Below are positions 384 through 13,713 of a stretch of 64,000 nucleotides of DNA, one piece after another. The notes beneath the pieces are model-generated. The model made no database searches. It worked only from the letters and a program-made list of their open reading frames with translations, and was not told the DNA's origin. This stretch comes from Burkholderiaceae bacterium. Lineage in GTDB: Bacteria; Pseudomonadota; Gammaproteobacteria; Burkholderiales; Burkholderiaceae_E. Numbering within the stretch: position 1 is the first letter of the stretch; each line of letters begins with the position of its first letter. Where the stretch lies: the NCBI GenBank assembly GCA_023954045.1, contig JAMLIR010000001.1, forward strand, positions 372,001-436,000, read 5' to 3'. The position numbers were made by a program, and so were the translations under genes.

Positions 384-956
384 TCAGTGGCTGCCCGGCC
401 CCACGCGGCTGAAGAGTCGCCGCCATACTCCGCCTAGCCAGGCGCCCAATCGCGCCAGCCAATCCCGCCCCACGACCGGCGCCACCGCTCCCGGCGCCAC
501 ACCCTCGGGCGCAGCGGCCGCAGGCGCCACCGCCCCGAAGCGCTGCTCCAGATGCTCGGCGAACTGCGCGGTGCGCTCGTCCGCACGCCGCTCGAACAGG
601 CGATCGACGACCGGCTTGAGCGGCCCTTCGCCCTTCGCGCTGATCAGGCCGCGCATCTCGGTGCCCATGCCCCGTGCCTCGAGGGCGACGTCGATCTCCA
701 TGCTCAGGTGCTCGGCCGTCGCGATCGCGTGGAGCCTGTTCGGCGGTTCTTCCGAATCGATGTGCGCAGTGAGGTCGACGATCAGCGGCACCACGCCGAC
801 CTTCTCCTTCACCGTCAGTTGCGCGGTCCGGTCGTCCACCACCCTGACCTGCTCGACGCCGGGGATGCACGAGCACAGCGCGTGAACGTCGCGCACGAAG
901 CCCCACACCTCCATCGGCGGCGCATTGACGGTGAACTTCGTCTCGCGCGTCGGCAT
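384..956 (-). CDS. CoxG/SRPBCC-family protein
   Basis: A 190-residue protein of the CO-dehydrogenase subunit G (CoxG) family, START/SRPBCC fold. The first ~150 residues show the family pattern: F.V.AP...VW.F..D, CIPGV, a long strand with LTVKEKVGVVP, and the final helix KPVVDRLFERRADE. The tail is Ala/Pro/Gly-rich and ends in a Trp/Arg amphipathic segment that could bind membrane; CoxG is known to anchor the CO dehydrogenase to the membrane. The start overlaps the stop of the upstream oxidoreductase (ATG at 956-954, TGA at 958-956), so the two are translationally coupled. No coxMSL genes are visible, so a role other than CO oxidation is likely, for example binding a hydrophobic substrate or recruiting the partner enzyme to the membrane (inference). 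Confidence 0.8.
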   Translation of the reverse strand: MPTRETKFTVNAPPMEVWGFVRDVHALCSCIPGVEQVRVVDDRTAQLTVKEKVGVVPLIVDLTAHIDSEEPPNRLHAIATAEHLSMEIDVALEARGMGTEMRGLISAKGEGPLKPVVDRLFERRADERTAQFAEHLEQRFGAVAPAAAAPEGVAPGAVAPVVGRDWLARLGAWLGGVWRRLFSRVGPGSH

Positions 957-2524
957 CAGTCCCACCACTTGTTCAGCTTCAGGTCCTCCGCGATCACGCC
1001 GGCGGCGTTGTGTCCGGCCCCCGCGTGCACGCCGCCGCCGGGGTGGCAGTAGCCGCCGCACATGTAGAGCCCCTCGAGCGGCGTGCGATAGTCGGACCAC
1101 CCGGCGAACGGCCTGAAGTAGCCCATCTGGTCGGGCGTCATGTCGCCGACGACGTCGACGCCGTTGACGAGGTTGTCGTTGTGCCGCTCGGTGTCGGTCG
1201 GGTCCTGGATCGCCATCGCCAGGATCTTGTCGCGCGTCATGTTCGGCGCGTACGATTGCCAGAGATCGAGCACGTGCTCGGCGTACTCGGCGCGCACCCT
1301 GCTCCAGCCTGCGGGGCCGTCGGGCTCGACCCGGTACGGTGCGTATTGCCAGACCACCGCCGTGTGCCGGCCCGCGGGCGCCTGCGACGGATCGAACAGC
1401 GTGGGCAGCGTCACCTGCAGCATCTCCATGCGCGGCGGCGTGCCCATCGCGATCTCCTGGTAGGCGCGCACCTGGTCCTGGACGCTGCCGCCGAACATCT
1501 CCTGGCTGAACGCCGTGTTCACCGCTGCATTGCCCACGGCCGCGCGATAGTCCGGCGGCTCCGAGAGGGCAAGGTGCAGCACGAAGAGCGAGCGCCCGTT
1601 CGAGTGATAGCTCTTCACCCGCGTGACGAACGGGGCAGGCAGGTGCTCCTCGCCGACCATCTCGAGGAAGCTCTTCTTCGGCTCGACGTTGGTGACGACG
1701 GCGCGCGTTGCCTCGATCCGCGTGCCGTCGGCAAGCTCGACGCCGGTTGCACGGTTGCCGCGCACCAGGATGCGCTTCACCGGGGCGTCGGTGCGGACCA
1801 CGCCACCGTGCGCCTCCACCGCGCGCCTCAACCCCGTGGCCAGTTGCCCCGAGCCGCCCACGCAGATCGGCGCCTCGGCCTTCAGGATGCGGAACAGGCA
1901 GATCCACCCCTGCCCGAACTGGTCGGGCGCGAACCCGAGCACGGTCATCCGGGCAAGGAAGTGCACCTTGACAGCCTCGTTCTCGAACAACTCGTCGAGC
2001 AACTGCACCGGCGTGCTCGCCTGCCACTGCAGCAGCGTCCGCCCCTCCGGGGAGCGCTCGAGCTGGGCGCTCTGCACCGAAGGCGGCAGCGGCGGCGAAT
2101 ACATCAGCGGCAGGTACGTCGTCTCGATGAATTCGCCGTAGTCCTCGACCAGCTGCCGGAACGTCCGCGCATCGCGCGCGGAAAAGCGCGCGAGCTCGGC
2201 GGCCATCCGCTCGGCATCGCGATACATGACGATGCTCTCGTGCCCCGGAAAGATCGTTCCGCGCAGATGCTGCGGATAGACGTATTTGACGCCGTGCCGC
2301 TCGAGCTCCAGGTCGCGATAGACCGGGCTGGTGGGGATGTGCGTGTGCACCACCGAGCAGATGTTGTGCCCGAACCCCGGCAGCGTCGCTTCCGAGGTGC
2401 TGCACGAGCCACCCACGCGGGCACTGCGCTCGAGCACGAGCACGCTCGCGCCCGCCTTCGCAAGGTAGGCCGCGCAGGCCAGGCCGTTGTGGCCCGAGCC
2501 GACGACGATGAAGTCCCAGGACAC
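956..2524 (-). CDS. FAD-dependent oxidoreductase, phytoene dehydrogenase/PYROXD2-like
   Basis: A 522-residue flavoprotein. The N-terminus has the Rossmann dinucleotide motif VVGSGHNGLACAAYLAKAG (GxGxxG form with the GHNGL variant of PYROXD2-like proteins), followed by VLERSARVGGSC. A second FAD-contact motif lies at the C-terminus, around GLYMCGGYCHPGGGV and AGHNAAGVIAED. Length and motifs match the phytoene-desaturase-like amine-oxidase superfamily, but no carotenoid genes lie nearby, so carotenoid synthesis is unlikely. It sits between an IclR regulator 15 bases upstream and a CoxG-like gene that overlaps its stop. The substrate is unknown; an oxidation of a lipid or other hydrophobic molecule would suit the SRPBCC partner (inference). 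Confidence 0.82.
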   Translation of the reverse strand: MSWDFIVVGSGHNGLACAAYLAKAGASVLVLERSARVGGSCSTSEATLPGFGHNICSVVHTHIPTSPVYRDLELERHGVKYVYPQHLRGTIFPGHESIVMYRDAERMAAELARFSARDARTFRQLVEDYGEFIETTYLPLMYSPPLPPSVQSAQLERSPEGRTLLQWQASTPVQLLDELFENEAVKVHFLARMTVLGFAPDQFGQGWICLFRILKAEAPICVGGSGQLATGLRRAVEAHGGVVRTDAPVKRILVRGNRATGVELADGTRIEATRAVVTNVEPKKSFLEMVGEEHLPAPFVTRVKSYHSNGRSLFVLHLALSEPPDYRAAVGNAAVNTAFSQEMFGGSVQDQVRAYQEIAMGTPPRMEMLQVTLPTLFDPSQAPAGRHTAVVWQYAPYRVEPDGPAGWSRVRAEYAEHVLDLWQSYAPNMTRDKILAMAIQDPTDTERHNDNLVNGVDVVGDMTPDQMGYFRPFAGWSDYRTPLEGLYMCGGYCHPGGGVHAGAGHNAAGVIAEDLKLNKWWD

Positions 2525-2539
2525 GGCGAATTCCCCCGG

Positions 2540-3298
2540 TCAGTCGTGCAGTCGGGACGACAGTTCGTCGGCCGCCGCGCGGACGCGATGCGCCAGCGCG
2601 TCGAGGCCCCGCGCATCGGTCAGGTTGGTCGGGCAGGCGACGCCCAGCGCCGCCACCGTTCGGCCCGCGCGCCGCACCGGCGCGGCCAGCGCCAGCAGGC
2701 CGACGAAGGATTCCTCGCGGCCCCAGCCGATGCCGTCGCGACGGACGCACGCGAGCTCCCGCGCGAACGCTTGACGCGATCCGAGGCTCTTCGGCGTCAG
2801 CCGCTGCATCCCCTGTCGGCGCAGTACCGCGTCGGCCTGCACGGGCGGCAGGTCGGCGAGCAGTACCTTTCCGGCCGCGCTCGCGGAGACCGGAAGCCGG
2901 TCACCGGCCTTCATCGCCGCCGCCCGGACCGGCAGCGTCGCCTCCTCGACGAGCACGAACAGCGCCTGCTCGTCGTCGAGCACCGCGAGCGAGGCCATGT
3001 GCCCACAGGCGTCGCGCAGCGCTGCGACGACGCGGCGCCCCTCGCGCAGCAGCGGGTCCTGCTCGACGAAACCGGCGGCGACGCGATAGAGGCTCTCGCC
3101 GAGGCTGTAGCGCCCGGTGACCGGGTCCTGCCGGAGGAACCCCTCGCCGGCCAGTGTCGCGGCCAGGCGATAGGCGGTCGACTTGTGCAGGCCGACCCTC
3201 GCGGCGAGCTCGGTGATGCCCAACGGCGGCGTTGCGCGGTCGAACACCTTGAGCAGCGAGAGCGCGCGCTGCACCGATTGGGTATTGTTTTGCATCAT
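2540..3298 (-). CDS. IclR-family transcriptional regulator
   Basis: 252 residues, the usual IclR length. The N-terminal winged helix-turn-helix runs to about residue 70 (SVQRALSLLKVFD, then ITELAARVGLHKSTAYRLAATL). The effector-binding domain follows, with typical segments such as PVSASAAGKVLLADLP and GIGWGREESFVGLLALAAPV. The ATG at 3298-3296 is preceded by a 184-base gap shared with the divergent thioesterase gene. It is followed after 15 bases by the FAD oxidoreductase on the same strand, so it probably leads that unit and controls it. The ligand cannot be read from the sequence; IclR proteins near acyl-CoA genes commonly sense organic acids. Confidence 0.88.
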   Translation of the reverse strand: MMQNNTQSVQRALSLLKVFDRATPPLGITELAARVGLHKSTAYRLAATLAGEGFLRQDPVTGRYSLGESLYRVAAGFVEQDPLLREGRRVVAALRDACGHMASLAVLDDEQALFVLVEEATLPVRAAAMKAGDRLPVSASAAGKVLLADLPPVQADAVLRRQGMQRLTPKSLGSRQAFARELACVRRDGIGWGREESFVGLLALAAPVRRAGRTVAALGVACPTNLTDARGLDALAHRVRAAADELSSRLHD

Positions 3299-3482: not shown

Positions 3483-3902
3483 ATGTCATCGACCTACGAC
3501 CCCGCAGCACACGGATGGACCGCCTTCCCGGACGAAGGCTTCATCGACCACGTCGGCCCGATCTGGACGAAGCGTGACGACGGACGGTCGCGGTTCGGCT
3601 TCGTCGCCGACAGGCATCACGCGAACCTGATCGGCGTAGTCCAGGGCGGAATGCTGATGACCTTCGGCGACCGCGCGCTCGGGTTGCGGGCCTGGGAGGC
3701 AGCGGGTGGCGCGCCGTGCGTGACGGTGCAGTTCGACATGCAGTTTCTTTCGTCGGGGCGAATCGGCGAATTCATCGAGGTCGAGCCCGAGCTCGTCCGG
3801 CAGACATCCTCCCTGCTGTTCCTTCGCGGCGTGCTCACCGCCGGCGACCGACCCGTGGCCACCGCCAGCGGCGTCTGGAAGAGCCTGAAGCCAAGGCAAT
3901 AG
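3483..3902 (+). CDS. PaaI-type hotdog thioesterase
   Basis: A 139-residue hotdog-fold protein. The helix region reads HANLIGVVQGGMLMTFGDRALG, matching the HxNxxGxxHGG element of PaaI-like acyl-CoA thioesterases, with Gln in place of the second His. The strands TVQFDMQFLSSGRIGEFIEVEPELV and VATASGVWKSL follow. The ATG at 3483 was chosen because it gives the family length; in-frame upstream codons would add an unrelated Arg-rich extension. The enzyme would hydrolyse an acyl-CoA to the acid and CoA in the cytoplasm. It lies 84 bases before the second IclR gene and heads the plus-strand acyl-CoA run, so a housekeeping role in releasing trapped CoA in that pathway is plausible (inference). Confidence 0.82.
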   Translation: MSSTYDPAAHGWTAFPDEGFIDHVGPIWTKRDDGRSRFGFVADRHHANLIGVVQGGMLMTFGDRALGLRAWEAAGGAPCVTVQFDMQFLSSGRIGEFIEVEPELVRQTSSLLFLRGVLTAGDRPVATASGVWKSLKPRQ

Positions 3903-3942: not shown

Positions 3943-3980
3943 GATTCAATATCTCAAAATCCATTTCAGCCTGTTGAATC
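3943..3980. promoter_or_regulatory. Candidate operator (dyad) in front of IclR gene
   Basis: A dyad centred at 3961.5: outer arms GATTCAA (3943-3949) and TTGAATC (3974-3980), and inner arms AAAT (3957-3960) and ATTT (3963-3966) with the same centre. It is AT-rich in an otherwise very GC-rich setting and ends six bases before the ATG at 3987. IclR-family proteins are known to bind palindromes of this kind and to autoregulate. Assignment to this IclR protein is inference. Confidence 0.5.
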
Positions 3981-3986
3981 CTAAAG

Positions 3987-4730
3987 ATGTCACGCGTCCG
4001 CACCGCCGACCGCACGCTCGCGATCTTCGAAGCCTTCGAAGCCGCCTGCCGGCCCATGCTGCTCAGCGAGCTGGCGCAGCGGGCGCGCGTGCCGGTCAGC
4101 AGCTGCCACGGACTCGTGCAGACCCTGCTCGAGCGCGGCTATCTCTATTCGCTCGGACGCCGCAAGGACATCTACCCGACGCGGCGCCTGCTCGACGCCG
4201 CGCAGAAAATCGTCCGCCACGACCCCCTGCTCGAGCGCATCGAGCCGGTGCTGCACGACCTGCGCGACAGCACGCGCGAGACGATCATCCTCGGCAAGCG
4301 CCAGGGCGATGCGGTGCTCTACCTCGAGGTCGTGCCGGGGCTGCACACGGTGCGCTATACGGCGAACCCCGGGGAGTTCAAGCCGCTGCACTCCAGCTCG
4401 ATCGGGAAGGCCTTGCTGGGAAGCCTTTCCGCAGACGCGCTCGCCGACTGGCTGCGTGCGAACCCGTTGCCCGCGGTCACCGGCCGGACGCTCGTCGACC
4501 CGGAGCGCTTGCGGGCCGACCTCGCGCGCGGCCATCGGCGCGGCTACCACATGACCGAAGGCGAGAACGTCTCCGACGTGACGGCGCTGGCGGTTTCGCT
4601 GTCGGTCCATGGCGAGACCCTCGGCCTTGCGATCGCAGGCCCCACCCACCGGATGGGCGAGCAGGTCGAGGAGCACGCCGCGCACCTGCTCGAAGCCCGG
4701 CGCACCATCGAGAAGATCTTCGAACGATGA
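3987..4730 (+). CDS. IclR-family transcriptional regulator of the mutase operon
   Basis: 247 residues. The N-terminal helix-turn-helix (TADRTLAIFEAFE, LLSELAQRARVPVSSCHGLVQTLLERGYL) is followed by an IclR effector domain from about residue 75, with DLRDSTRETIILGKRQGDAVLYLEV and HSSSIGKALLGSL. The stop TGA at 4728-4730 overlaps the ATG of the enoyl-CoA hydratase gene by 4 bp, so the regulator is the first cistron of the operon it presumably controls. A dyad ends just before the start codon. It shares little obvious sequence with the IclR protein at 2540-3298 beyond family motifs. The inducer is probably the imported acid or its CoA ester (inference). Confidence 0.88.
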   Translation: MSRVRTADRTLAIFEAFEAACRPMLLSELAQRARVPVSSCHGLVQTLLERGYLYSLGRRKDIYPTRRLLDAAQKIVRHDPLLERIEPVLHDLRDSTRETIILGKRQGDAVLYLEVVPGLHTVRYTANPGEFKPLHSSSIGKALLGSLSADALADWLRANPLPAVTGRTLVDPERLRADLARGHRRGYHMTEGENVSDVTALAVSLSVHGETLGLAIAGPTHRMGEQVEEHAAHLLEARRTIEKIFER

Positions 4731-5515
4731 CGCAACCCGAACACCTGCGGGTCGAGGTCGTGGACGCCGTCTTGCGCGTCCGCATCGATCGTCCCGAGAA
4801 GCGCAATCCGCTCAGCCGCGCGGTTCTCGGCGAACTCGGGCAGGTCTTCCGTGAATACGCGACCGACGCCTCGTTGCGCGCGGCCGTCGTCACCGGCGCA
4901 GGCGACAGGAGCTTCGCGGCCGGCGGCGACCTGAAGGAGTTTTCCGCGTTTCGCAGCGACGAGGACGCCGACGCGCTATTCGCGCACGCCAACGACGCGC
5001 TCGCCGCGATCCGGCGATTCCCGGTTCCGGTCGTCGCGGCGCTGAACGGCATGGCGATCGGCGGCGGCGCGGAACTCGCGATGGCCTGCGACTTCCGCGT
5101 GGCGGCGGCGCACGCAACGATCGGATTCGTGCAGGGGCGCCTGAACATCTCCACCGGCTTCGGCGGCGGAACCGACCTGGTCCAGCTGGTCGGCCCGCGC
5201 ATGGCGCTGTCTCTGCTGATCGGCGCGCAGGTGTTCGACGCGACCGACGCGAAACGGATCGGGCTCGTCGACGAGGTGTCGGGCGACTCGGAATCGCTCG
5301 ATGACTGCGTGGAGCGTTTCCTGGCGCCGATGCGCGCCCAGGCGCCCCAGGTGCTGCGCGCCTTCAAGGCGATCGCGTCGAGCGCACGCCAGGGCCTGCC
5401 GCGCGACGAGCGAGAGCGCGAGGAGCGCGCCGCCTTCGTCCGCACCTGGACGCACCCCGATCACTGGGCAGCCGCCGAGCGCGTACTGGCCCGCATGGCA
5501 CGAGGCACCGCATGA
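4727..5515 (+). CDS. Enoyl-CoA hydratase/isomerase family protein
   Basis: 262 residues of the crotonase superfamily. The two oxyanion-hole segments are visible: GAGDRSFAAGGDLKEF (residues ~63-78) and ALNGMAIGGGAELAMACDFRVA (~105-125), followed by GFVQGRLNISTGFGGGTDLVQLVG. At the position where hydratases carry their first catalytic Glu (GLxxxP), this protein reads GRLNISTG. The usual acid pair is therefore incomplete, and activity could be isomerase, decarboxylase, hydrolase or an atypical hydratase. The ATG at 4727 overlaps the IclR stop, and the TGA overlaps the mutase start at 5512. The gene order places the enzyme in the same pathway as the mutase and CoA-transferase. Family certain; exact reaction unknown. 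Confidence 0.85.
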   Translation: MTQPEHLRVEVVDAVLRVRIDRPEKRNPLSRAVLGELGQVFREYATDASLRAAVVTGAGDRSFAAGGDLKEFSAFRSDEDADALFAHANDALAAIRRFPVPVVAALNGMAIGGGAELAMACDFRVAAAHATIGFVQGRLNISTGFGGGTDLVQLVGPRMALSLLIGAQVFDATDAKRIGLVDEVSGDSESLDDCVERFLAPMRAQAPQVLRAFKAIASSARQGLPRDEREREERAAFVRTWTHPDHWAAAERVLARMARGTA

Positions 5516-7137
5516 ACGACACGAAGCGCACCGGCGCGCCCGGCGCCAATCCGCAGGCCCCCTCGCCGTTCATCCGTTCCGGCATCGAAGCGCCGGTCGT
5601 CGCGACCGCCGACACGCCACGGACGCGTGACCCGGGCCTTCCGGGGCAGTATCCGTTCACCCGCGGCATCTTCGCCGACGGCTTCCGGGGCCGGATGTGG
5701 ACGATGCGCCAGTACTCGGGCTTCGGCACGCCCGAGGAGTCGAACGAGCGCTACCGTTTCCTGCTCGATCGCGGCCAGACCGGGCTGTCGATCGCGCTGG
5801 ACCTGCCGACGCAGTGCGGCCTGGATCCGGCCGACCCGATGGCGCGCCCCGAGATCGGCAAGGTCGGTGTCTCGCTGTCGAACCTCTCGGAAATGGAGAT
5901 CCTGTTCAAGGGGATCGACCTGTCGAAGATCTCGACGTCGTTCACGATCAACGGTACCGCGGCGATCATCTATGCGATGTACATCGCCTGCGCCGACCGC
6001 AATGGCGTGCCGCGCGAGAAGCTCACCGGCACGATTCAGAACGACATCCTGAAGGAGTACGTCGCGCGCGGCACCTGGATTTTCCCGGTGCACCCCTCGA
6101 TGCGGCTGATCTCCGACACGATCCTGTTCGGCAACCGCGAGACGCCGCGCTTCAACACGATCTCGATCGCGGGCGCGCACATGCGCGACGCGGGCTGCAC
6201 GGCCGCCGAGGAGATGGCGTTCACGCTGTCCAATGGACTCGCATACGTCGACGAGCTGCTGCGCCGCGGAGGACGGGCGGACGACTTCGCCAAGCGACTG
6301 TCCTTCTTCTTCTACGTGCACATGGACCTGTTCGAGGAGGTCGCGAAGTTTCGGGCCGGCCGTCGCGTCTGGGCCCGCCTGCTGCGCGACCGCTATTCGG
6401 TCACCGACCCGAAGGCGCAGATGTTCCGCTTCGGCGTGGTCTGCGGCGGCTCGTCGCTCGTGGCGCCGCAGCCCCACAACAACGTGATCCGCGTGTCGAT
6501 CGAAGCGATGGCTGCGGTGCTCGGCGGCGCACAGTCGATCTTCACCTGCGCCTACGACGAGCCGTTCCAGATCCCCACCGAGTTCTCCGCCGAACTCGCA
6601 TTGCGCACCCAGCAGATCGTCGCGCACGAGAGCGGCATCGCGCGCACCGTCGATCCGCTCGGCGGCAGCTACTACACCGAGCACCTGACCGACGAGATGG
6701 AGCAGCGGATCGACACGCTGATGAAGGAAGTCGAGGACTACGGCGGGGCGATCAAGGCGATCGAGGACGGCTGGATGCAGCAGCGCATCGCCCATCGCGC
6801 GCACGAGAGGAAGCAGCAACTCGACAGCGGCGAGTTGCCGGTGGTCGGCCTGAACTGTTTCCGGCGCGACGACCAGCCGACCTCCCCCGGAGAGGTCTTT
6901 CACCTCGATCCGCAGGTCAGCCGTCGCGTGCTCGAGAAGTTCGAGGCCATCCGCGATCGCCGCGACGCGGGCGCTGTGGCGCGCTCGCTCGATCGCCTCG
7001 AACAGGCGGCGGAGCAGGACGGCGAGAACCTGATGCCCTACCTGATCGAATGCTGCCACGCCTACGCCACCGTGGGCGAAATGGTTTCCCGCCTGAAGGC
7101 CCGATGGGGCGAGTTCCAGGAGCCGGTGCGCCTATGA
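5512..7137 (+). CDS. B12-dependent acyl-CoA mutase, large (catalytic) subunit
   Basis: 541 residues, the TIM-barrel catalytic chain of the methylmalonyl-CoA mutase family without the B12 domain, which is encoded separately just downstream. Family motifs: YPFTRGIF (residue ~47), WTMRQYSGFGTPEESN (~63), GTIQNDILKEYVARGTWIFP (~173) and ISIAGAHMRDAG (~218). By alignment from memory with the Propionibacterium enzyme, Y68 and R186 match Tyr89 and Arg207, which bind the substrate carboxylate, with the same spacing of 118; H223 matches catalytic His244. Isobutyryl-CoA mutase has Phe/Gln at the pair. However, Thr77-Met78 of the reference are Asp56-Gly57 here, and the loop after DLPT reads QCGLDPADP instead of HRGYDSDNP. 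A carboxylated substrate is likely; methylmalonyl-CoA itself is not assured. Both ends overlap neighbours by 4 bp. Confidence 0.93.
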   Translation: MNDTKRTGAPGANPQAPSPFIRSGIEAPVVATADTPRTRDPGLPGQYPFTRGIFADGFRGRMWTMRQYSGFGTPEESNERYRFLLDRGQTGLSIALDLPTQCGLDPADPMARPEIGKVGVSLSNLSEMEILFKGIDLSKISTSFTINGTAAIIYAMYIACADRNGVPREKLTGTIQNDILKEYVARGTWIFPVHPSMRLISDTILFGNRETPRFNTISIAGAHMRDAGCTAAEEMAFTLSNGLAYVDELLRRGGRADDFAKRLSFFFYVHMDLFEEVAKFRAGRRVWARLLRDRYSVTDPKAQMFRFGVVCGGSSLVAPQPHNNVIRVSIEAMAAVLGGAQSIFTCAYDEPFQIPTEFSAELALRTQQIVAHESGIARTVDPLGGSYYTEHLTDEMEQRIDTLMKEVEDYGGAIKAIEDGWMQQRIAHRAHERKQQLDSGELPVVGLNCFRRDDQPTSPGEVFHLDPQVSRRVLEKFEAIRDRRDAGAVARSLDRLEQAAEQDGENLMPYLIECCHAYATVGEMVSRLKARWGEFQEPVRL

Positions 7138-7553
7138 CCACGACGTCCGCCAAGCCGCCATCGCTGCGCGGCAAGAGAATCCTGATCGCGAAGCCCGGGC
7201 TCGACGGCCACGACGTCGGGGCGAAGATCGTCGCGCTCGCGCTTCGCGATGCCGGCGCCGACGTGATCTACACGGGTCTGCGCAAGGCACCGGGCTTCAT
7301 CGCGCACGTCGCCGTCGACGAGGACGTCGACGCGGTGGGCCTGTCGATCCTCTCGGGCAGCCACAACGAGCTCGTCGCGCAGACCCTCGAGCAGTTGCGC
7401 GCGCTCGACGCCGGCGACATCCCGGTGTTCGTCGGCGGCACGATCCCCGAGAACGATCGCGAAGCCTTGCGCGCGCAGGGCGTCCGCGGCGTCTACACCA
7501 GCGACATCCCGCTCGACGAAGTCGTCGCCAGCGTCGCGCAGCTGCTGTCATGA
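7134..7553 (+). CDS. Acyl-CoA mutase small subunit, cobalamin-binding domain
   Basis: 139 residues forming only the B12-binding Rossmann domain. The signature DGHDVG (D24, H26, G29) supplies the histidine that replaces the lower base of adenosylcobalamin. GLSILSGSH and VFVGGTIP are the other two nucleotide-loop-binding motifs (SxL and GG). It pairs with the large subunit at 5512-7137, overlapping its stop by 4 bp (ATG 7134, TGA 7135-7137), in the same split arrangement as isobutyryl- and 2-hydroxyisobutyryl-CoA mutases. The stop overlaps the next start at 7550. In methylmalonyl-CoA mutases the domain is normally fused to the catalytic chain, so the split form is one reason for caution about the substrate. 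Confidence 0.93.
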   Translation: MTTTSAKPPSLRGKRILIAKPGLDGHDVGAKIVALALRDAGADVIYTGLRKAPGFIAHVAVDEDVDAVGLSILSGSHNELVAQTLEQLRALDAGDIPVFVGGTIPENDREALRAQGVRGVYTSDIPLDEVVASVAQLLS

Positions 7554-8674
7554 GCCTGCCGCTGGCCGGAAAACGGATCATCGAAGTCGGCCACATGCTG
7601 ATGGGGCCGTATTGCGGGATGCTGCTCGCGGACATGGGGGCCGAGGTCGTCAAGGTCGAGCCTCCCGGCGGAGACATCGCCCGCACGATCAGCCCGCACC
7701 GGATCGGGGGCCACAACGCGTACTTCGCGAGCCTGAATCGCAGCAAGAAGAGCGTCGTGCTCGACCTGGGCTCGGAGTCCGGACAGGCGGAGCTCGTCGC
7801 GCTCGCGCGCACTGCCGACGGACTCGTCACCAACCTGCGGCCCGGCGCGATCCGCAAGCTCGGTTTGACCTACGACCGGCTCAAGCACGCGAACCCGGCC
7901 ATCGTCTGCGTGGCACTCACCGGCTACGGGCTGCAGAGCCCGTTCGCCGAACGGCCGGCGTACGACTACGTGATCCAGGCGCTCACCGGCGTGATGGCGC
8001 TGACCGGCGACCCCGACGGCCCGCCGACCAAGACCGGCTATTCGGCAGTCGACAACTCGGCCGGAATCATGGGCGCGGTCGGCCTGCTCGCCAAGCTCGT
8101 CGAGGGCAAGGGCGGCCAGGTCGACATCGCGATGTACGACGTCATGCTCTCGCAACTGAACTACCTCGCCGGGGCCTGGCTGAACGCCGGCGAGCGAGCG
8201 GAGCGCTATCCGCATTCCGCGCACCCGTACATCGTGCCGGCACAGATCTTCCGGACCTCCGATGGCTGGCTGACGCTGTTCATCACGCACGACGACTTCT
8301 GGCGGCGCTTCTGCCAGGAAGTCGGGCACCCCGAGTGGACGACCGACCCGCGCCTGGCGACGATGTCGGCGCGGCGCGAGAATCGCACGGTTGCCCTGCA
8401 GTTCGTCGCCGACGTGGTGGCCTCGAACACCACCGAACACTGGGTGTCCCGGCTCGCACCGCTCGGCATCGTCGCTGCCGGCGTCGAGAGCCTGGAGCAG
8501 GCGCTCGCCAGCGAGCACACTCTCTCTCGCGCGATGGTCGCCGGTGTCCCGACCGACGAAGGGACGATCCGGGTCGTCGGCAATCCGATCAAGTTCTCCG
8601 GGGCGCGCGACGAGTACCGGGCACCACCGGCGCTGGGCGAGCACAACGACGTGCTGCTGGAGCATCCGAAGTGA
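7550..8674 (+). CDS. CaiB/BaiF class III CoA-transferase
   Basis: 374 residues, the normal family length. The start LAGKRIIEVGHMLMGPYCGMLLADMGAEVVKVEPPGGD is the classic N-terminal block. DLGSESGQAELVALARTADGLVTNLRPGA and GKGGQVDIAMYDVMLSQ are further family segments. D168 in YSAVDNSAG is at the position of the catalytic aspartate (Asp169 of formyl-CoA transferase), which forms the acyl-anhydride and CoA-thioester intermediates. The enzyme would move CoA from a donor acyl-CoA to a carboxylic acid in the cytoplasm. Its place between the mutase and the mutase chaperone suggests that it activates the imported acid to the mutase substrate, or recovers CoA from the product. Donor and acceptor cannot be read from sequence. 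Confidence 0.9.
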   Translation: MSLPLAGKRIIEVGHMLMGPYCGMLLADMGAEVVKVEPPGGDIARTISPHRIGGHNAYFASLNRSKKSVVLDLGSESGQAELVALARTADGLVTNLRPGAIRKLGLTYDRLKHANPAIVCVALTGYGLQSPFAERPAYDYVIQALTGVMALTGDPDGPPTKTGYSAVDNSAGIMGAVGLLAKLVEGKGGQVDIAMYDVMLSQLNYLAGAWLNAGERAERYPHSAHPYIVPAQIFRTSDGWLTLFITHDDFWRRFCQEVGHPEWTTDPRLATMSARRENRTVALQFVADVVASNTTEHWVSRLAPLGIVAAGVESLEQALASEHTLSRAMVAGVPTDEGTIRVVGNPIKFSGARDEYRAPPALGEHNDVLLEHPK

Positions 8675-9579
8675 CCGGAGCGCGCGCGCCCATGGCCGTC
8701 GATCGCCGCGCGCTCGCACGAGCGCTCACGCGCGCCGCGCGCGCGAGCGTCGACGACACGCTGCGCGACGCCGACGCACCCTCCGCAGCCGCACCCCGGA
8801 TCGGCGTGACCGGTGCCCCGGGAGTCGGCAAGAGTTCGCTCGTGGCGCGCCTCGCGCGGCACCGCGTCGAACGCGCGGCGCCGCTGGCGGTCATCGCCAT
8901 CGATCCCTCCAGCCCGCACACCAGCGGGTCGTTGCTCGGCGACCGCATCCGCATGGACTCGGTCGCCGACGACCCGCGCATCTACATCCGCTCGCTCTCC
9001 AGCGGCCGGACACAGGACGGGCTGAGCGACAACCTGCCCGAGGTCCTCGCAGCAGTCGACGCTTTCGGCTTCGCCGAGGTCATCCTCGAGACGGTGGGCG
9101 TCGGCCAGTCCGAGTACGGGGTTCGCGAACTGGTCGACGTCGAGTTGCTCGTGCTGACGCCGGGATCCGGCGACACGGTTCAGGCGATGAAGGCCGGCAT
9201 CCTCGAGACCGCCGACATCCTCGTCGTGAACAAGGCCGACCTTCCCGGTACGCAGCGCCTGGCGCTCGACCTGCGCTCGGTGTTCGGCAGTCGCAGGAAC
9301 GTCGCCCCCCCGCCGGTCGTCCTCGTCCGTCACGACGAAGAGGCCGGCCTGCGCGAACTGAGCAGCCTGGTCGACGACGCGCTCGCGCGGTGCATGCGGC
9401 CCGCCGCGGGCCTCGAGCGCCGGCGCCGCTTCAACCGGTACCGCGTCCAGCGGCTCGCGGCGCGCCGCCTGGACGAAGCCATTGCCCTGTTGCCGGCCTC
9501 CCGGTTCGACGAGAGGCCCGCCGACGTCTACCGCGACCTGCTGGCCCGGCTGGCCGAGCAGGCGGGGAGCCCCAGCTGA
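8671..9579 (+). CDS. meaB: MeaB/ArgK-type GTPase, acyl-CoA mutase chaperone
   Basis: About 302 residues of the G3E family. Motifs: Walker A GAPGVGKSS (residue ~48), switch region ending DPSSPHTSGSLLGDRIRM, ETVGVGQSE, and the NKAD base-specificity motif. MeaB proteins gate adenosylcobalamin loading and protect B12 mutases from inactivation, and their presence beside the mutase supports real B12-dependent activity. The GTG at 8671 overlaps the CoA-transferase stop in the same 4-bp way as the other genes of the run, so I prefer it; an in-frame ATG at 8692 would start at MAVDRRAL and is also reasonable. The protein is somewhat short at the N-terminus compared with typical MeaB. Confidence 0.9.
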   Translation: MTGARAPMAVDRRALARALTRAARASVDDTLRDADAPSAAAPRIGVTGAPGVGKSSLVARLARHRVERAAPLAVIAIDPSSPHTSGSLLGDRIRMDSVADDPRIYIRSLSSGRTQDGLSDNLPEVLAAVDAFGFAEVILETVGVGQSEYGVRELVDVELLVLTPGSGDTVQAMKAGILETADILVVNKADLPGTQRLALDLRSVFGSRRNVAPPPVVLVRHDEEAGLRELSSLVDDALARCMRPAAGLERRRRFNRYRVQRLAARRLDEAIALLPASRFDERPADVYRDLLARLAEQAGSPS

Positions 9580-9616
9580 CACTGGCAACCACACCAACGA
9601 CGAGAGGGAGATGCAG

Positions 9617-10630
9617 ATGAACAGGCTTTTGACGAAGACGTTCAAGACGGCCCTGGCCGCGGGAATCCTGGCGGTCTGCGGCACCAGCGCGGCCCAGGTC
9701 CTGAACCTGAAGATGGCGCACCAGTGGCCGCAGGACGAGTTCGACTACGTGATCGCGATCGCCAGCAAGTTCGTCCAGGAAGTCGAGAAGCGCTCGAACG
9801 GACAGATCAAGATCGCGGTGTTCCCCGCCGAGTCCCTCGTGAAGGCGGGTGCGACCCACACCGCGCTGAAGAACGGCACGGTCGATCTCGCGGTGTACCC
9901 GTACATCTACTCGGCGGGCGCCATCCCCGAGATGAACCTGGTCCTGCTGCCGGGCCTGTGGAAGACGCACGACGACGCGTTCGCGTTCCGCAAGTCGGAA
10001 GCCTGGAAGAAGCTCGAGCAGAAGGCCGAGGCATTCGGCTTCAAGACGCTGTCGTGGATCCAGATCTCCGGCGGCGTCGCGTCGACGAAGAAGGCGATCC
10101 ACAAGCCCGAAGACGTCTCGGGCATGAAGATGCGGGCGGCCGGCAAGTTCATGGAGTACGCGCTGCAGCAGGCGGGCGCAAGCACGGTCTCGATGCCCTC
10201 GTCCGAGAACTACAGTGCGATGCAGCTCGGGCTCCTCGACGGCATGTGGACCTCGTCGGGTTCGTTCGGCGCATATCGGATGTACGAAGTGGCGAAGTAC
10301 TACGTCTCGCCGGAGGACTTCAGCGTCTTCTTCACGATCGAGCCGATCGCGATCAGCATGAAGACCTGGAACAAGCTGAGCCCCGAGCAGCAGAAGATCA
10401 TGACCGAGGTGGGTGCCAGCCTCGAGCAGGCGGCGCTCGAGGGCGCCAAGAGGGAGGATTCGCGCGTGGCGAAGCTCTTCGCCGACAAGGGTGTCAAGGT
10501 CGAGAAGATGAGCGAGGCCGACTGGAAGACCTGGCAGGCCTGGTTCGCGCAGCACAGCTTCGCGAAGTTCAGGAAGGACATCCCCGGCGGTGAGGAACTG
10601 ATCGGGGACAGCGCCCGGTTCGGCAAGTGA
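9617..10630 (+). CDS. dctP: TRAP transporter solute-binding protein, DctP family
   Basis: 337 residues with a signal peptide (MNRLLTKTFKTALAAGILAVCGTSAAQ) and a mature periplasmic domain of DctP type. GMKMRAAGKFMEYALQQAGAS carries the Arg of the MKxR segment that usually salt-bridges the substrate carboxylate. I prefer the ATG at 9617 because GGGAG at 9606-9610 gives proper spacing; an ATG at 9611 is too close to it. It delivers its ligand to the DctQM permease encoded immediately downstream. The 37-base gap from meaB is the largest inside the run, so a secondary promoter is possible, but same-strand placement ties the imported organic acid to the mutase pathway (inference). Confidence 0.92.
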   Translation: MNRLLTKTFKTALAAGILAVCGTSAAQVLNLKMAHQWPQDEFDYVIAIASKFVQEVEKRSNGQIKIAVFPAESLVKAGATHTALKNGTVDLAVYPYIYSAGAIPEMNLVLLPGLWKTHDDAFAFRKSEAWKKLEQKAEAFGFKTLSWIQISGGVASTKKAIHKPEDVSGMKMRAAGKFMEYALQQAGASTVSMPSSENYSAMQLGLLDGMWTSSGSFGAYRMYEVAKYYVSPEDFSVFFTIEPIAISMKTWNKLSPEQQKIMTEVGASLEQAALEGAKREDSRVAKLFADKGVKVEKMSEADWKTWQAWFAQHSFAKFRKDIPGGEELIGDSARFGK

Positions 10631-11160
10631 CCGACTCGCTCGGCGACGATCGGTCGGTCCCCGCCCCCGGCGACTCCGGTCGCAGGGGGTGGCTGGGCCG
10701 AGCAACCCGGTTCTCCGGGATCGCGGTCGGGGTGGCGGCGTTCCTGATTGCCGTGCTGGTGACGGTCGAGGTCGTCGCCCGGACGCTGCTGGGCGCGACG
10801 ACCGCGTGGGTGAACGACGTCTCCGTCTACCTGATGGGCTTCATCACTTTCGTCGGGGCGGCCTACGCGCTCGCAGAGCGCGCCCACGTCAGCGTCGACG
10901 TCGTGCTGACACGGGTCGGGGCGCGCACGAGGCGCCTGCTGGTCCGCATCGCGGACCTGCTGGTGCTCGCGGTGGTCGCCACGCTCGCCTGGCTCGGCGC
11001 CGCATTCTGGTGGGACGCCTACACCAGCGGCGAGAAGTCGTGGGGACTGGTCGAGGTCGCACTCTGGATCCCCTACTCGTTCCTCGCCGTGGGCATGCTC
11101 TGGCTGCTCGTCATGCACCTCGCGATGATGGTCGGTCGCATGCGCGGCGAGACGTCCTGA
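10627..11160 (+). CDS. dctQ: TRAP transporter small permease, DctQ
   Basis: 177 residues with four hydrophobic segments, the usual DctQ topology: roughly residues 28-50 (ending VEVVARTLLG), 58-80 (VYLMGFITFVGAAYALAERAHVSVDV), 98-118, and 136-165. The motif ERAHVSVDVV is the typical first cytoplasmic loop of DctQ proteins. The GTG at 10627 overlaps the dctP stop by 4 bp. It forms the membrane complex with DctM and docks the binding protein. It follows its partner in the standard P-Q-M order. Confidence 0.9.
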   Translation: MTDSLGDDRSVPAPGDSGRRGWLGRATRFSGIAVGVAAFLIAVLVTVEVVARTLLGATTAWVNDVSVYLMGFITFVGAAYALAERAHVSVDVVLTRVGARTRRLLVRIADLLVLAVVATLAWLGAAFWWDAYTSGEKSWGLVEVALWIPYSFLAVGMLWLLVMHLAMMVGRMRGETS

Positions 11161-11197
11161 CCCGTCCGGCACTCGATCGACGCCTCCGGGAGACCCG

Positions 11198-12508
11198 ATG
11201 GAAATCTGGATCGGCCTGGCGATGTTCGCCGGCCTCATCGCGCTGCTGGCTGTCGGCGTCCCCGTCGCGTTCGGTCTGTTCGGCATCGGCATCGCCGCCC
11301 TGTTCATCGTCGGCGGCGGCGTCGACGCCCTGGGCCTCGTGGCCCCCACGCTCTGGGGCTCGGTGACGAGCTTCACACTGACCGCGGTGCCACTGTTCAT
11401 CCTGATGGGGGCGATCATCTCGGCATCGGGAATGGGCTCGCGGCTGTACACGTCGCTGGCGACCCTGATGCACGGCGTTCCGGGCGGCCTCATGGTCGCC
11501 ACGACGCTGGCCTGCACCGTCATGGCAGCCGTCTCCGGGTCGAGCGTCGCCACTGCGGGCGCCATCGGCCGATTCTCCGTGAGCGAAATGCGGCGGTTCG
11601 GCTACCGCGACAGCGCGTCGTGCGGCGCGGTCGCCGCCGGCGGCACGCTCGGCATCCTGATTCCGCCCAGCATCCCGATGATCGTCTACGGCATCGTTGC
11701 CGAGCAGTCGATCGGAAAGCTCTTCATTGCGGGCATCGTTCCCGGCCTGATGATGGCGGGTGCCTTCGTCGCGTACCAGGTCATCGGAGCCATGCGCGAA
11801 CAGTCGCTGCGCGCGCGCTCGCAGGCGCCCGACGAGGTCGGCTGGCGCGACCGGCTGCTCGCCTTGCGGCACGTCGGACCGATCGCCGTGCTGATCTGGA
11901 TCATCCTGGGTTCCATCTACCAGGGCATCGCGACGCCGACCGAAGCCGCGGCGCTCGGCGCGCTCGCGAGCCTGCTGCTGTCGGGCGTGATCTACCGGGA
12001 GCTCGACCTGGCCAGACTGCGGCTCATCCTGCAGGAAACAGCCCGTGGAAGCGTCATGGTGCTGATGATCATCGCCGGCGCGATGGTCTTCGGCTACGCG
12101 ATGACCGCGACGCAGGTCGCGCCGGTCCTCTCGCGCACGGTTGCGCAACTCGACGTGTCGCCGTGGGTCGTCTTCATAGCGATCAACCTGCTGCTGATCT
12201 TTCTCGGCTGCTTCATGGAGACGCTGTCGATCATCGTGATCACGACCCCGATCCTGATCCCGATCATCACGACGTTCGGCTGGGACCTGATCTGGTTCGG
12301 CATCATCCTGACGATCAATATGGAGATGGCCCTGATCACCCCGCCGGTGGGTCTGAACCTGTTCGTCGTCCAGGGCGTGGTGCGCGACGTCAGCCTCGAG
12401 CGGATCATCGTCGGAGCCCTTCCCTACGTGGCGATCATGCTGGCCGTGCTGGCGCTGGTCGCGATCTTTCCCGTACTCGCGACGGGCCTGATCGGCAGCG
12501 TCCGATAG
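11198..12508 (+). CDS. dctM: TRAP transporter large permease, DctM
   Basis: 436 residues, about twelve hydrophobic segments, the size of DctM. Family elements include AVPLFILMGAIISASG near residue 67 and the conserved GGTLGILIPPSIPMIVYGIV loop at ~148-167, which belongs to the sodium-coupled transport core. A ribosome site GGGAG (11188-11192) precedes the ATG at a good distance. It imports the DctP ligand using the sodium gradient. No gene for a separate regulator of the transporter is nearby, so it is probably under the IclR protein at 3987. Confidence 0.92.
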   Translation: MEIWIGLAMFAGLIALLAVGVPVAFGLFGIGIAALFIVGGGVDALGLVAPTLWGSVTSFTLTAVPLFILMGAIISASGMGSRLYTSLATLMHGVPGGLMVATTLACTVMAAVSGSSVATAGAIGRFSVSEMRRFGYRDSASCGAVAAGGTLGILIPPSIPMIVYGIVAEQSIGKLFIAGIVPGLMMAGAFVAYQVIGAMREQSLRARSQAPDEVGWRDRLLALRHVGPIAVLIWIILGSIYQGIATPTEAAALGALASLLLSGVIYRELDLARLRLILQETARGSVMVLMIIAGAMVFGYAMTATQVAPVLSRTVAQLDVSPWVVFIAINLLLIFLGCFMETLSIIVITTPILIPIITTFGWDLIWFGIILTINMEMALITPPVGLNLFVVQGVVRDVSLERIIVGALPYVAIMLAVLALVAIFPVLATGLIGSVR

Positions 12509-12519
12509 GCTGCAGGCCA

Positions 12520-13713
12520 GTGCCCCTCACCTCGGCATCGTTCGTCGTCGTCGCGATGCTCGTCGCACAGACGATCGTTTCGATGGGGACGCTGACGCTT
12601 CCGGCGATCGCGCCGGCGCTCGCCCGGGCACTCGAGGTCGATGCCTCCGCAATCGGCTACCAGATCAGCATCCTCTACGCGGGCGCAATGGCCAGCGCCG
12701 CCCTGGGCGGAAGCGTCGTGCAGCGGATCGGTGCCGGCCGAACGACGCAAACGGCGCTCGCGGCCATCGCGGCCGGCATGGCGCTGGGAACCTCGGGCAG
12801 TATCGCAGCGCTGATGATCGCATCGCTGCTGCTCGGCCTCGGCTACGGGTTGTCGAATCCGGCCGCGGCCGAGTTGCTCGTCCGATACACCCCGGCCAGC
12901 CGGAGGAACCTGATCTTCTCGCTGAAGCAGACCGGGGTTCCACTCGGCGGCATGGCCGCGGCCATGGTCGCTCCGGGGATCGCGTCGACCTTCGGTTGGC
13001 GTGCGGCGTTGCTGCTCGTCACGGCACTGGCCATCGCCATGGTCGTCCTGCTCCAGTTTCCCCGCAGCCGCTGGGACGAGCCCGGCGACAATCCGCTGCC
13101 CATCTCCTGGGCGCAGGTCTTCGGCGGCATCTCGCTGATCTGGCGCGAGCCGTCGCTTCGTTACCTGTCGCTGATGGCGCTGTGCTTCGCCGGTGTTCAA
13201 CTTTGTCTGATGACCTTCACCGTGACGCTGCTGGTCGCCGAGTCGGGGTACTCGCTCGTGCGCGCAGGCCTGGTCCTGTCGGTCGTCCAGTTCGCGGGCG
13301 CCATCGGCCGCATTGCCTGGGGATGGGCTGCCGATCGCACGCGATCGAGCACCGCGGTGCTGATCGCGCTCGGGACGATCATGCTGGCGGCGACTCTCGT
13401 GGTCACCCGGATCGACGCCGGGTGGAGCGCGGCATGGATTCTCTTCGTATTCGTGGCCATGGGCTCGACCGCAATCGGCTGGAACGGCGTATTCCTCGCG
13501 GAGGTCGCCCGACTGGCCCCCGCGAGCCGGGCGAGCACGGCGACCGGTGGGGCGCTGTTCTTCACGTTCGCAGGCGTCCTGCTTGGCCCCTCGGCCTTCG
13601 CGGCCGTGTACGGGCGCCTGCAGAGCTACACCGGGACGTTCGTCGTCGCCGCCATTCTCGCGGCCACAGGCATCGGACTCGCCGCGCTGTCGCGCGCATG
13701 CCGCACCCCCTAG
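12520..13713 (+). CDS. MFS transporter
   Basis: About 397 residues with twelve predicted membrane segments and major-facilitator character: a first half ending around residue 190, a central loop (RSRWDEPGDNPLPISW), and a second half. GRIAWGWAADRTRS near residue 265 is the repeated MFS motif A. GTG at 12520 is taken as the start because it leaves the first membrane segment intact; ATG at 12556 is an alternative. It follows dctM by 11 bases and is likely in the same transcript. Substrate unknown; it may export a by-product or import an alternative substrate of the mutase pathway. It ends 4 bases into the convergent lysE-like gene. Confidence 0.85.
   Translation: MPLTSASFVVVAMLVAQTIVSMGTLTLPAIAPALARALEVDASAIGYQISILYAGAMASAALGGSVVQRIGAGRTTQTALAAIAAGMALGTSGSIAALMIASLLLGLGYGLSNPAAAELLVRYTPASRRNLIFSLKQTGVPLGGMAAAMVAPGIASTFGWRAALLLVTALAIAMVVLLQFPRSRWDEPGDNPLPISWAQVFGGISLIWREPSLRYLSLMALCFAGVQLCLMTFTVTLLVAESGYSLVRAGLVLSVVQFAGAIGRIAWGWAADRTRSSTAVLIALGTIMLAATLVVTRIDAGWSAAWILFVFVAMGSTAIGWNGVFLAEVARLAPASRASTATGGALFFTFAGVLLGPSAFAAVYGRLQSYTGTFVVAAILAATGIGLAALSRACRTP

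Follow-up and report, generated by a model that had tools for sequence, protein, structure and literature searches.

In the sbm genes of E. coli (scpA-argK-scpB-scpC), a mutase, a MeaB-type GTPase, a methylmalonyl-coenzyme A (CoA) decarboxylase and a CoA-transferase adjoin one another, and their order of reactions is like the one that we propose here for a set of genes from a bacterium of the Burkholderiaceae (PMC5512728); the same paper reports that, for sbm to yield propionate from glucose, an epimerase has to be added. In the breakdown of indoleacetate, where IaaM serves uptake, IaaL is followed by IaaGH and then by the decarboxylating IaaF (PMC8360864). For a mutase of the split subclass, the conversion of hexylmalonyl-CoA into 2-pentylsuccinyl-CoA has been proposed (PMC5719088), and mammalian ECHDC1, an ethyl-/methylmalonyl-CoA decarboxylase, is described as having a clean-up function during fatty acid synthesis (PMC6717113). 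Within a 64,000-nucleotide stretch of contig JAMLIR010000001.1 (positions 372,001 to 436,000; hereafter the window), we find a cassette of genes that works like the sbm, indoleacetate and alkylmalonyl-CoA mutase systems and carries the defining features of none of them. We give an even chance to the reading that it would form a self-contained catabolic unit for an external substituted succinate, its steps being predicted from sequence.

The cassette is a single run at 3987–13713, with all genes on the + strand. It begins with an IclR-family regulator (3987–4730; PF09339, PF01614), whose gene is overlapped by that of a crotonase-fold protein, the proposed substituted-malonyl-CoA decarboxylase (4727–5515; PF00378). 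The next two genes encode the large subunit of an adenosylcobalamin (AdoCbl)-dependent acyl-CoA mutase (5512–7137; PF01642 at 637.1 bits, TIGR00641 above cut-off) and its B12-binding small subunit (7134–7553; PF02310, TIGR00640 above cut-off), and the DGHDVG motif of the latter supplies the DxHxxG signature that, with PF01642, identifies a split AdoCbl acyl-CoA mutase. They are followed by a class III (CaiB/BaiF) CoA-transferase (7550–8674; PF02515 at 377.7 bits) and a MeaB-type GTPase chaperone of the mutase (8671–9579; Walker A motif; PF03308 at 206 bits, TIGR00750 at 216.1 bits, below its cut-off of 240.75). The TRAP substrate-binding protein DctP (9611–10630; PF03480, GMKMR motif, best solved relative 4mco_A), the small permease DctQ (10627–11160; PF04290) and the large permease DctM (11198–12508; PF06808, TIGR00786 above cut-off) together make up a DctPQM TRAP transporter, and an MFS transporter (12520–13713; PF07690) with an assumed GTG start at 12520 ends the run. 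For the motif residues of the B12 subunit, MeaB, CaiB and DctP we assume the roles generally ascribed to them. Profile matches bear out the IclR-led run that an earlier note on this DNA had described; the start that it gave, 4727, is that of the crotonase gene and not of the regulator. Its remark that nearly all junctions are 4-bp overlaps was slightly generous, as six of the nine are of this kind (five from IclR through MeaB, plus DctP/DctQ) and the remaining three leave 31, 37 and 11 bases between the genes.

A search for mutase loci returned 61, of which 13 were at 69–89% identity and 48 at 44–59%, values above 53% in the latter group being partial matches. Sources of the closer group include Burkholderiales, Hyphomicrobiales, Bradyrhizobium, Xanthobacter, Ramlibacter, Vannielia and a SAR324 bin. 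The cassette gene set was found in 30 loci (25 plus five more), including named Alpha-, Beta- and Gammaproteobacteria, with the B12 subunit matched in 30, the crotonase in 29, and the CoA-transferase, MeaB and IclR in 27 each; close kin are present among these loci (L075 and L079; L110 with L122–L125), and the contigs of L018 and L023 end inside the cassette. This recurrence shows the run to be more than a chance arrangement, and the gene order, whose restriction to this strain would have spoken against the earlier proposal, is conserved beyond it. At 27 control loci that hold other split mutases (those of at least 15 kb among the 48 loci L027–L074), by contrast, the crotonase, CoA-transferase and DctPQM were matched at none, MeaB and the B12 subunit at two each, and LivF and a P450 at one each; since the transporter queries were drawn from cassette loci, unrelated transporters in the controls could be missed. 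Precedents for a mutase tied to uptake weigh against the earlier contrast with housekeeping methylmalonyl-CoA mutase, which was said not to be normally joined to a TRAP transporter: IaaM (PMC8360864) is one, and a ligand-binding receptor in the neighbourhood of the Xanthobacter 2-hydroxyisobutyryl-CoA mutase is another.

The type of transporter differs by host while the cassette enzymes stay constant. DctP and DctQ lie near the cassette in 9 of the 30 loci and TAXI-TRAP proteins in 7; an MFS gene stands beside it in 9 (the window included) and LIV-type ABC permeases in 4, and among 25 loci Bug-type binding proteins occur in 6 and TctA in 1. That carboxylate transporters should be exchanged around constant enzymes is what an imported substrate would predict. 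None of the queried transporters was found within 9.5 kb at L019, L023, L025 and L076, two of them on contigs shorter than 13 kb; an annotated TRAP binding protein at L076, 5–6 kb off, had been missed by the transporter queries. Two related loci, L021 (17049–19056) and L111 (2588–4389), hold, after a divergent DctPQM, a further CaiB-type gene and a further crotonase-like one.

The cassette is rare, with a patchy distribution among scattered soil and marine bacteria. At E 1e-200, a survey of 399 genomes of the order detected it in 2 and a survey of 398 from the phylum in 4, the genome of the window counting in both, and host-centred samples gave 3 of 397, 5 of 201 and, in the third, 1 of 4; the order, phylum and 397-genome surveys scored the best three candidates per genome. 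Four of 61 near relatives, again with the window's own genome included, have the mutase at at least 74% identity. Plasmids gave 428 matching records, eight of them at 60–80% identity; among the matches listed, seven of these belong to Paraburkholderia, Marinobacter, Diaphorobacter and Sulfitobacter. At L076 and L078 the cassette is on a plasmid with transposase genes close by, which suggests horizontal movement. Four annotated plasmid records give the mutase no name beyond methylmalonyl-CoA mutase family protein, and a search of the open-access literature, with subscription papers and preprints outside its scope, listed no paper that deals with this combination of genes.

The mutase tree, of 93 rows, was built by a quick method without L114, L115 and L121–L125. 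In it, the 23 cassette rows form a single clade with an SH-aLRT support of 100, and 2-hydroxyisobutyryl-CoA mutases (HCM; four rows), IaaG-like mutases (five) and methylmalonyl-CoA mutases (MCM; two) each form a clade of their own apart from it; several long branches were flagged, and the deeper order of the tree is unsure. Residue positions were transferred by alignment from MCM 1req, Arg207 being the R of YVARGTW, and for the roles of the active-site residues we take those commonly assigned in MCM. Tyr89, Gln197, Arg207 and His244 are kept in all 30 cassette rows, so that the carboxylate-binding pair of MCM, Tyr89 and Arg207, is invariant. Two other pocket residues are changed: position 117, Phe in MCM, is Leu in 29 of 30 rows and Met in one, and position 243, Tyr in MCM, is Ala in all 30; Cys123 and Tyr289 are likewise present in every row. 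The Phe117/Tyr243 pair is retained in the MCM rows (E. coli ScpA, L090 and L127–L129), in two presumed ethylmalonyl-CoA mutases (ECM) and in the IaaG-like, HCM and IcmF rows compared; of 48 split relatives, 47 have it as well, and the last shows a gap. At positions 89/116/207, all four HCM rows read Ile/Asp/Gln and one IcmF row has Phe89 and Gln207, against Tyr/Ala/Arg in every cassette row, which indicates that the alignment detects known specificity differences. These labels have different bases: one HCM row (L100) is named in PMC7176365 and the other three are assigned by clade; MCM rows L127–L129 are labelled by their residues and by a second-subunit match next to them, ECM by adjacency to the crotonyl-CoA carboxylase/reductase (Ccr) gene, IcmF by the length of the open frame, and IaaG-like rows by neighbourhood (a GGG motif at L002, L010 and L087; hydantoinase-like, dehydrogenase and CoA-transferase neighbours at L084) or otherwise by clade.

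With Tyr89 and Arg207 in place, a dicarboxylic acid is a better candidate than a hydroxy-monocarboxylate, and the mutase most likely accepts a dicarboxylyl-CoA, with a roomier pocket around the substrate. The combination of import, CoA transfer and mutase that the earlier note had linked to an external branched carboxylate is conserved, with the carboxylate narrowed to a dicarboxylic one and the hydroxy-acids that it also named losing ground. A cobalamin adenosyltransferase gene adjoins the cassette on the Marinobacter plasmid and at five loci belonging to a single family within the window's class (partially in L124), in line with the use of AdoCbl. Elsewhere, orphan split mutases at L089 (7391–9088) and L097 (8700–10403), 43% and 38% identical to the large subunit, combine Leu117 with Ser or Asn243 near thiolase-like genes, and further substrate classes may exist there. 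Locus L088 (5173–11827), where a mutase with Asn89, Val117 and Cys243 stands beside MeaB-like, CaiB-like and TRAP-binding-protein-like genes, is a second, different combination of mutase, CoA-transferase and TRAP components.

In the crotonase, Glu116, which corresponds to Glu144 of rat enoyl-CoA hydratase (ECH), is kept in 29 of 29 loci, together with glycines 67 and 113. The second catalytic position of ECH, Glu164, corresponds to residue 136 and is Gln in 26 loci and His in 3, so that the two-glutamate pattern of a hydratase is absent from all 29; this speaks against a plain hydratase. The description as an enoyl-CoA hydratase homologue accordingly stands for the family, PF00378, and is doubtful as a function: the enzyme may instead be a malonyl-CoA-type decarboxylase. 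A query with a provisional sequence of mouse ECHDC1 gave 25 best rows that were all cassette crotonases (20 distinct genes, 84–111 bits), followed by another crotonase at 81 bits and five more cassette rows (3 distinct genes) at 75–78 bits; the crotonase of the window itself was outside the set scored. The mammalian protein shares the crotonase fold, and the provisional sequence has WGG and PQV(I/L)R stretches and no Glu164, a resemblance that we treat as a lead, not proof. The structural model (mean pLDDT 89.8) did not discriminate, as the best 50 of 1759 Foldseek matches were crotonase-fold proteins, mostly named enoyl-CoA hydratase. For the CoA-transferase, PF02515 and the alignment of the Asp of GYSAVDNSAG with the Asp of formyl-CoA transferase rows support a class III enzyme. 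The NCBIfam models on which it scores highest are those for mesaconate, oxalate and glutarate CoA-transferases, all well under cut-off (mesaconate at 244.2 bits against 700), and its best structure matches are of the formyl-CoA/oxalate type.

Together, these observations suggest a pathway in which the TRAP transporter, or another transporter elsewhere, would bring in a diacid, and the CaiB-type transferase would place CoA on it, the donor probably being succinyl-CoA. The split mutase with its MeaB chaperone would then shift the thioester group to the adjacent carbon, converting a C2-substituted succinyl-CoA into a substituted malonyl-CoA; Arg207 and Tyr89 would grip the free carboxylate, while Leu117 and Ala243 would fit a substituent bigger than MCM or ECM accept. 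Decarboxylation of the malonyl-CoA product by the crotonase-fold protein would yield a plain or branched acyl-CoA for β-oxidation and would draw the reversible mutase forward. Such a route could bypass a block to direct β-oxidation, for example a quaternary or aryl-bearing C2 as in 2,2-dialkyl- or 2-arylsuccinate. The proposal draws on the co-location of the genes in 30 loci and the pairing of the same enzymes with different transporter families; on the separate mutase clade, the invariant diacid-binding pair and two pocket residues absent from the MCM, ECM, IaaG-like, HCM and IcmF rows; and on a CoA-transferase that scores best with the models and structures named above, a crotonase without Glu164, and the same reaction order in sbm and iaa.

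Compared with these systems, sbm shares the four activities, but its mutase is fused and has Phe117/Tyr243, and no transporter appears in the stretch shown. Its CoA-transferase presumably belongs to another class than that of the cassette. The iaa system likewise combines a CoA-transferase, a B12 mutase acting on a substituted succinyl-CoA, decarboxylation and linked uptake (PMC8360864); there, however, decarboxylation is by an acyl-CoA dehydrogenase rather than a crotonase, and the IaaG-like mutase of the window's genome is 45% identical, falls in another clade (support 100 each) and keeps Phe117/Tyr243. Inspection of window positions 1–24000 revealed no GGG-type acyl-CoA dehydrogenase. We therefore rejected IaaG as the same enzyme, despite an iaa-like cluster elsewhere in this genome (contig C6, L002/L112), which comprises hydantoinase-like, CaiB-like and GGG-motif acyl-CoA dehydrogenase genes and a split mutase. 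HcmAB/MeaH/HCL resembles the cassette in its split subunits, dedicated GTPase and catabolic cluster and differs, beyond the three residues above, in its acyl-CoA ligase, its GntR regulator and the lack of a TRAP transporter in the two stretches seen. ECM and ActD/MatB are comparable by substrate type, alkylmalonyl-/alkylsuccinyl-CoA (PMC5719088), but serve acetate assimilation or natural-product biosynthesis together with Ccr; the two ECM rows are 36–37% identical. No match to the Ccr model TIGR01751 above cut-off was found in the window's genome or in two other hosts (G695, G777), and in hosts G610 and G793 the mutase beside Ccr is another than that of the cassette. On residues and clade, we rejected HCM, isobutyryl-CoA mutase (ICM) and ECM as identities of the cassette mutase.

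Several observations weigh against the proposed pathway. The larger pocket is read from residues; moreover, 117 or 243 is altered in six of eight other uncharacterised mutases, none of which has the Leu/Ala pair. We found no assayed enzyme of the cassette clade, and no epimerase family among the Pfam matches of the ten cassette proteins scanned. The putative decarboxylase role is based on a lost glutamate and the provisional mouse sequence, while sequence and fold searches place enoyl-CoA hydratases first. E. coli ScpB is 22% identical to the window crotonase, and the column of its His66 is Gly in 29 of 29 cassette crotonases, unlike a ScpB-type decarboxylase. Genes are also missing near some mutases: L025 lacks the CoA-transferase and MeaB, L109 the CoA-transferase and IclR, L108 MeaB, L076 IclR, L019 the crotonase, and L023, a 7.9-kb contig, the CoA-transferase, MeaB and IclR. 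At L025 and L109, P450- and thiolase-like genes, in L109 also a CoA-ligase-like gene (partly by inspection), take the place of the CoA-transferase, as if the diacid there arose within the cell and were activated by other means. Finally, in one host (G777) the only matched mutase is the cassette enzyme, and the other two mutases of the window's genome look like IaaG and IcmF; the cassette mutase may therefore have a methylmalonyl-CoA role in these two.

This last point bears on whether the mutase is a split MCM carrying out ordinary C4 chemistry, an sbm-like conversion of succinate to propionyl-CoA or its reverse, beside a C4-dicarboxylate transporter. Such an enzyme would keep Tyr89 and Arg207 and score above the TIGR00641 cut-off, as this one does, and sbm has the same four activities. 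Yet the Phe117Leu and Tyr243Ala changes, set against the MCM, ECM and IaaG-like rows and the split relatives, and the missing crotonase, CoA-transferase and DctPQM matches in the controls make this improbable. In three hosts (G695, G610, G793) a further mutase with MCM-like residues adjoins a second-subunit match, and in G610 and G793 another adjoins Ccr and is presumably an ECM, so that the cassette enzyme is an extra one there. We set plain housekeeping MCM aside as the best reading and retained it as a rival. Methylsuccinate or another C5 diacid (itaconate, mesaconate), processed from methylsuccinyl-CoA via ethylmalonyl-CoA to butyryl-CoA by the ECM reaction in reverse, appears comparably improbable. 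It would suit the mesaconate model heading the CoA-transferase matches, a crotonase that resembles the provisional sequence of an ethylmalonyl-CoA decarboxylase, and MaoC- and CitE-like open reading frames 4–6 kb before the cassette at the Bradyrhizobium locus L021 (by inspection, with a transposase-like frame between). However, both presumed ECMs beside Ccr, in cassette hosts themselves, keep Phe117/Tyr243, so a methyl substituent needs no changed pocket, and methylsuccinyl-CoA can be oxidised directly, as in the ethylmalonyl-CoA pathway.

A monocarboxylate pathway of the HCM or ICM kind, for 2-hydroxyisobutyrate, isobutyrate or pivalate, would account for the split subunits and for the best PDB match of the mutase, the 2-hydroxyisobutyryl-CoA mutase 4r3u; we consider it very improbable, given the residues at 89/116/207 (in a comparison without a pivalyl-CoA mutase) and the acyl-CoA ligase used by HCM clusters (PMC7176365). 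A less remote alternative, which overlaps the others and which we regard as unlikely, leaves the cassette as described and has the crotonase serve as hydratase, hydrolase or isomerase, either upstream or downstream of the mutase step, with the mutase product handled otherwise. Its nearest solved sequences and folds, and the conserved Glu144 and glycine positions, fit that role, whereas the replaced Glu164 does not, and a decarboxylase would be the step that completes the described parallels. The catabolism of an external substituted succinate remains our preferred reading.

The regulator is proposed to act on the unit via a palindrome preceding its own gene, TTCAGCCTGTTGAA (3965–3978), a putative IclR site that ends 8 bases ahead of the IclR start. 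The pattern TTCAGnnnnnTGAA has one exact match in the window, against 0.08 expected, and at least one match in 7 of 100 shuffles. It precedes the cassette IclR gene in 9 of 30 loci (the window, L014–L017, L020, L024, L077 and L108), and no exact copy stands in front of that gene in the remaining 21; it also occurs at other places in L020, L024, L078 and L124. A PaaI-like hotdog thioesterase gene (3483–3902, + strand, ATG at 3483; named by inspection) is possibly associated; L014 and L017 carry a homologue on that side of the cassette as well (3 of 25 loci, the window included). Further upstream, a FAD-type oxidoreductase-like and a second IclR-like open reading frame lie divergently at 956–3298 on the − strand (inspection); neighbour-gene names at several other loci likewise come from reading translated frames rather than from database matches. 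An Rfam search of window positions 1–24000 gave no match at gathering scores.

The observation behind the earlier note is thus confirmed, and its interpretation is partly supported. Few substrate classes have been established for B12-dependent acyl-CoA mutases. We consider it possible, somewhat short of an even chance, that the cassette enzyme represents a new class of AdoCbl mutase for C2-bulky substrates (2,2-dialkyl- or 2-arylsuccinyl-CoA), within a mobile pathway that uses a crotonase-fold decarboxylase on a natural or man-made substituted succinate lacking a known pathway. An invariant, unusual pocket in a conserved cassette for import, activation and rearrangement defines a concrete set of substrates, and its assignment would correct routine annotation. 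Should the substrate prove to be a quaternary or aryl diacid, the cassette would offer a route to degrade branched compounds and to make substituted malonyl-CoA building blocks, and the compound that it breaks down may be one whose degradation has so far not been described.

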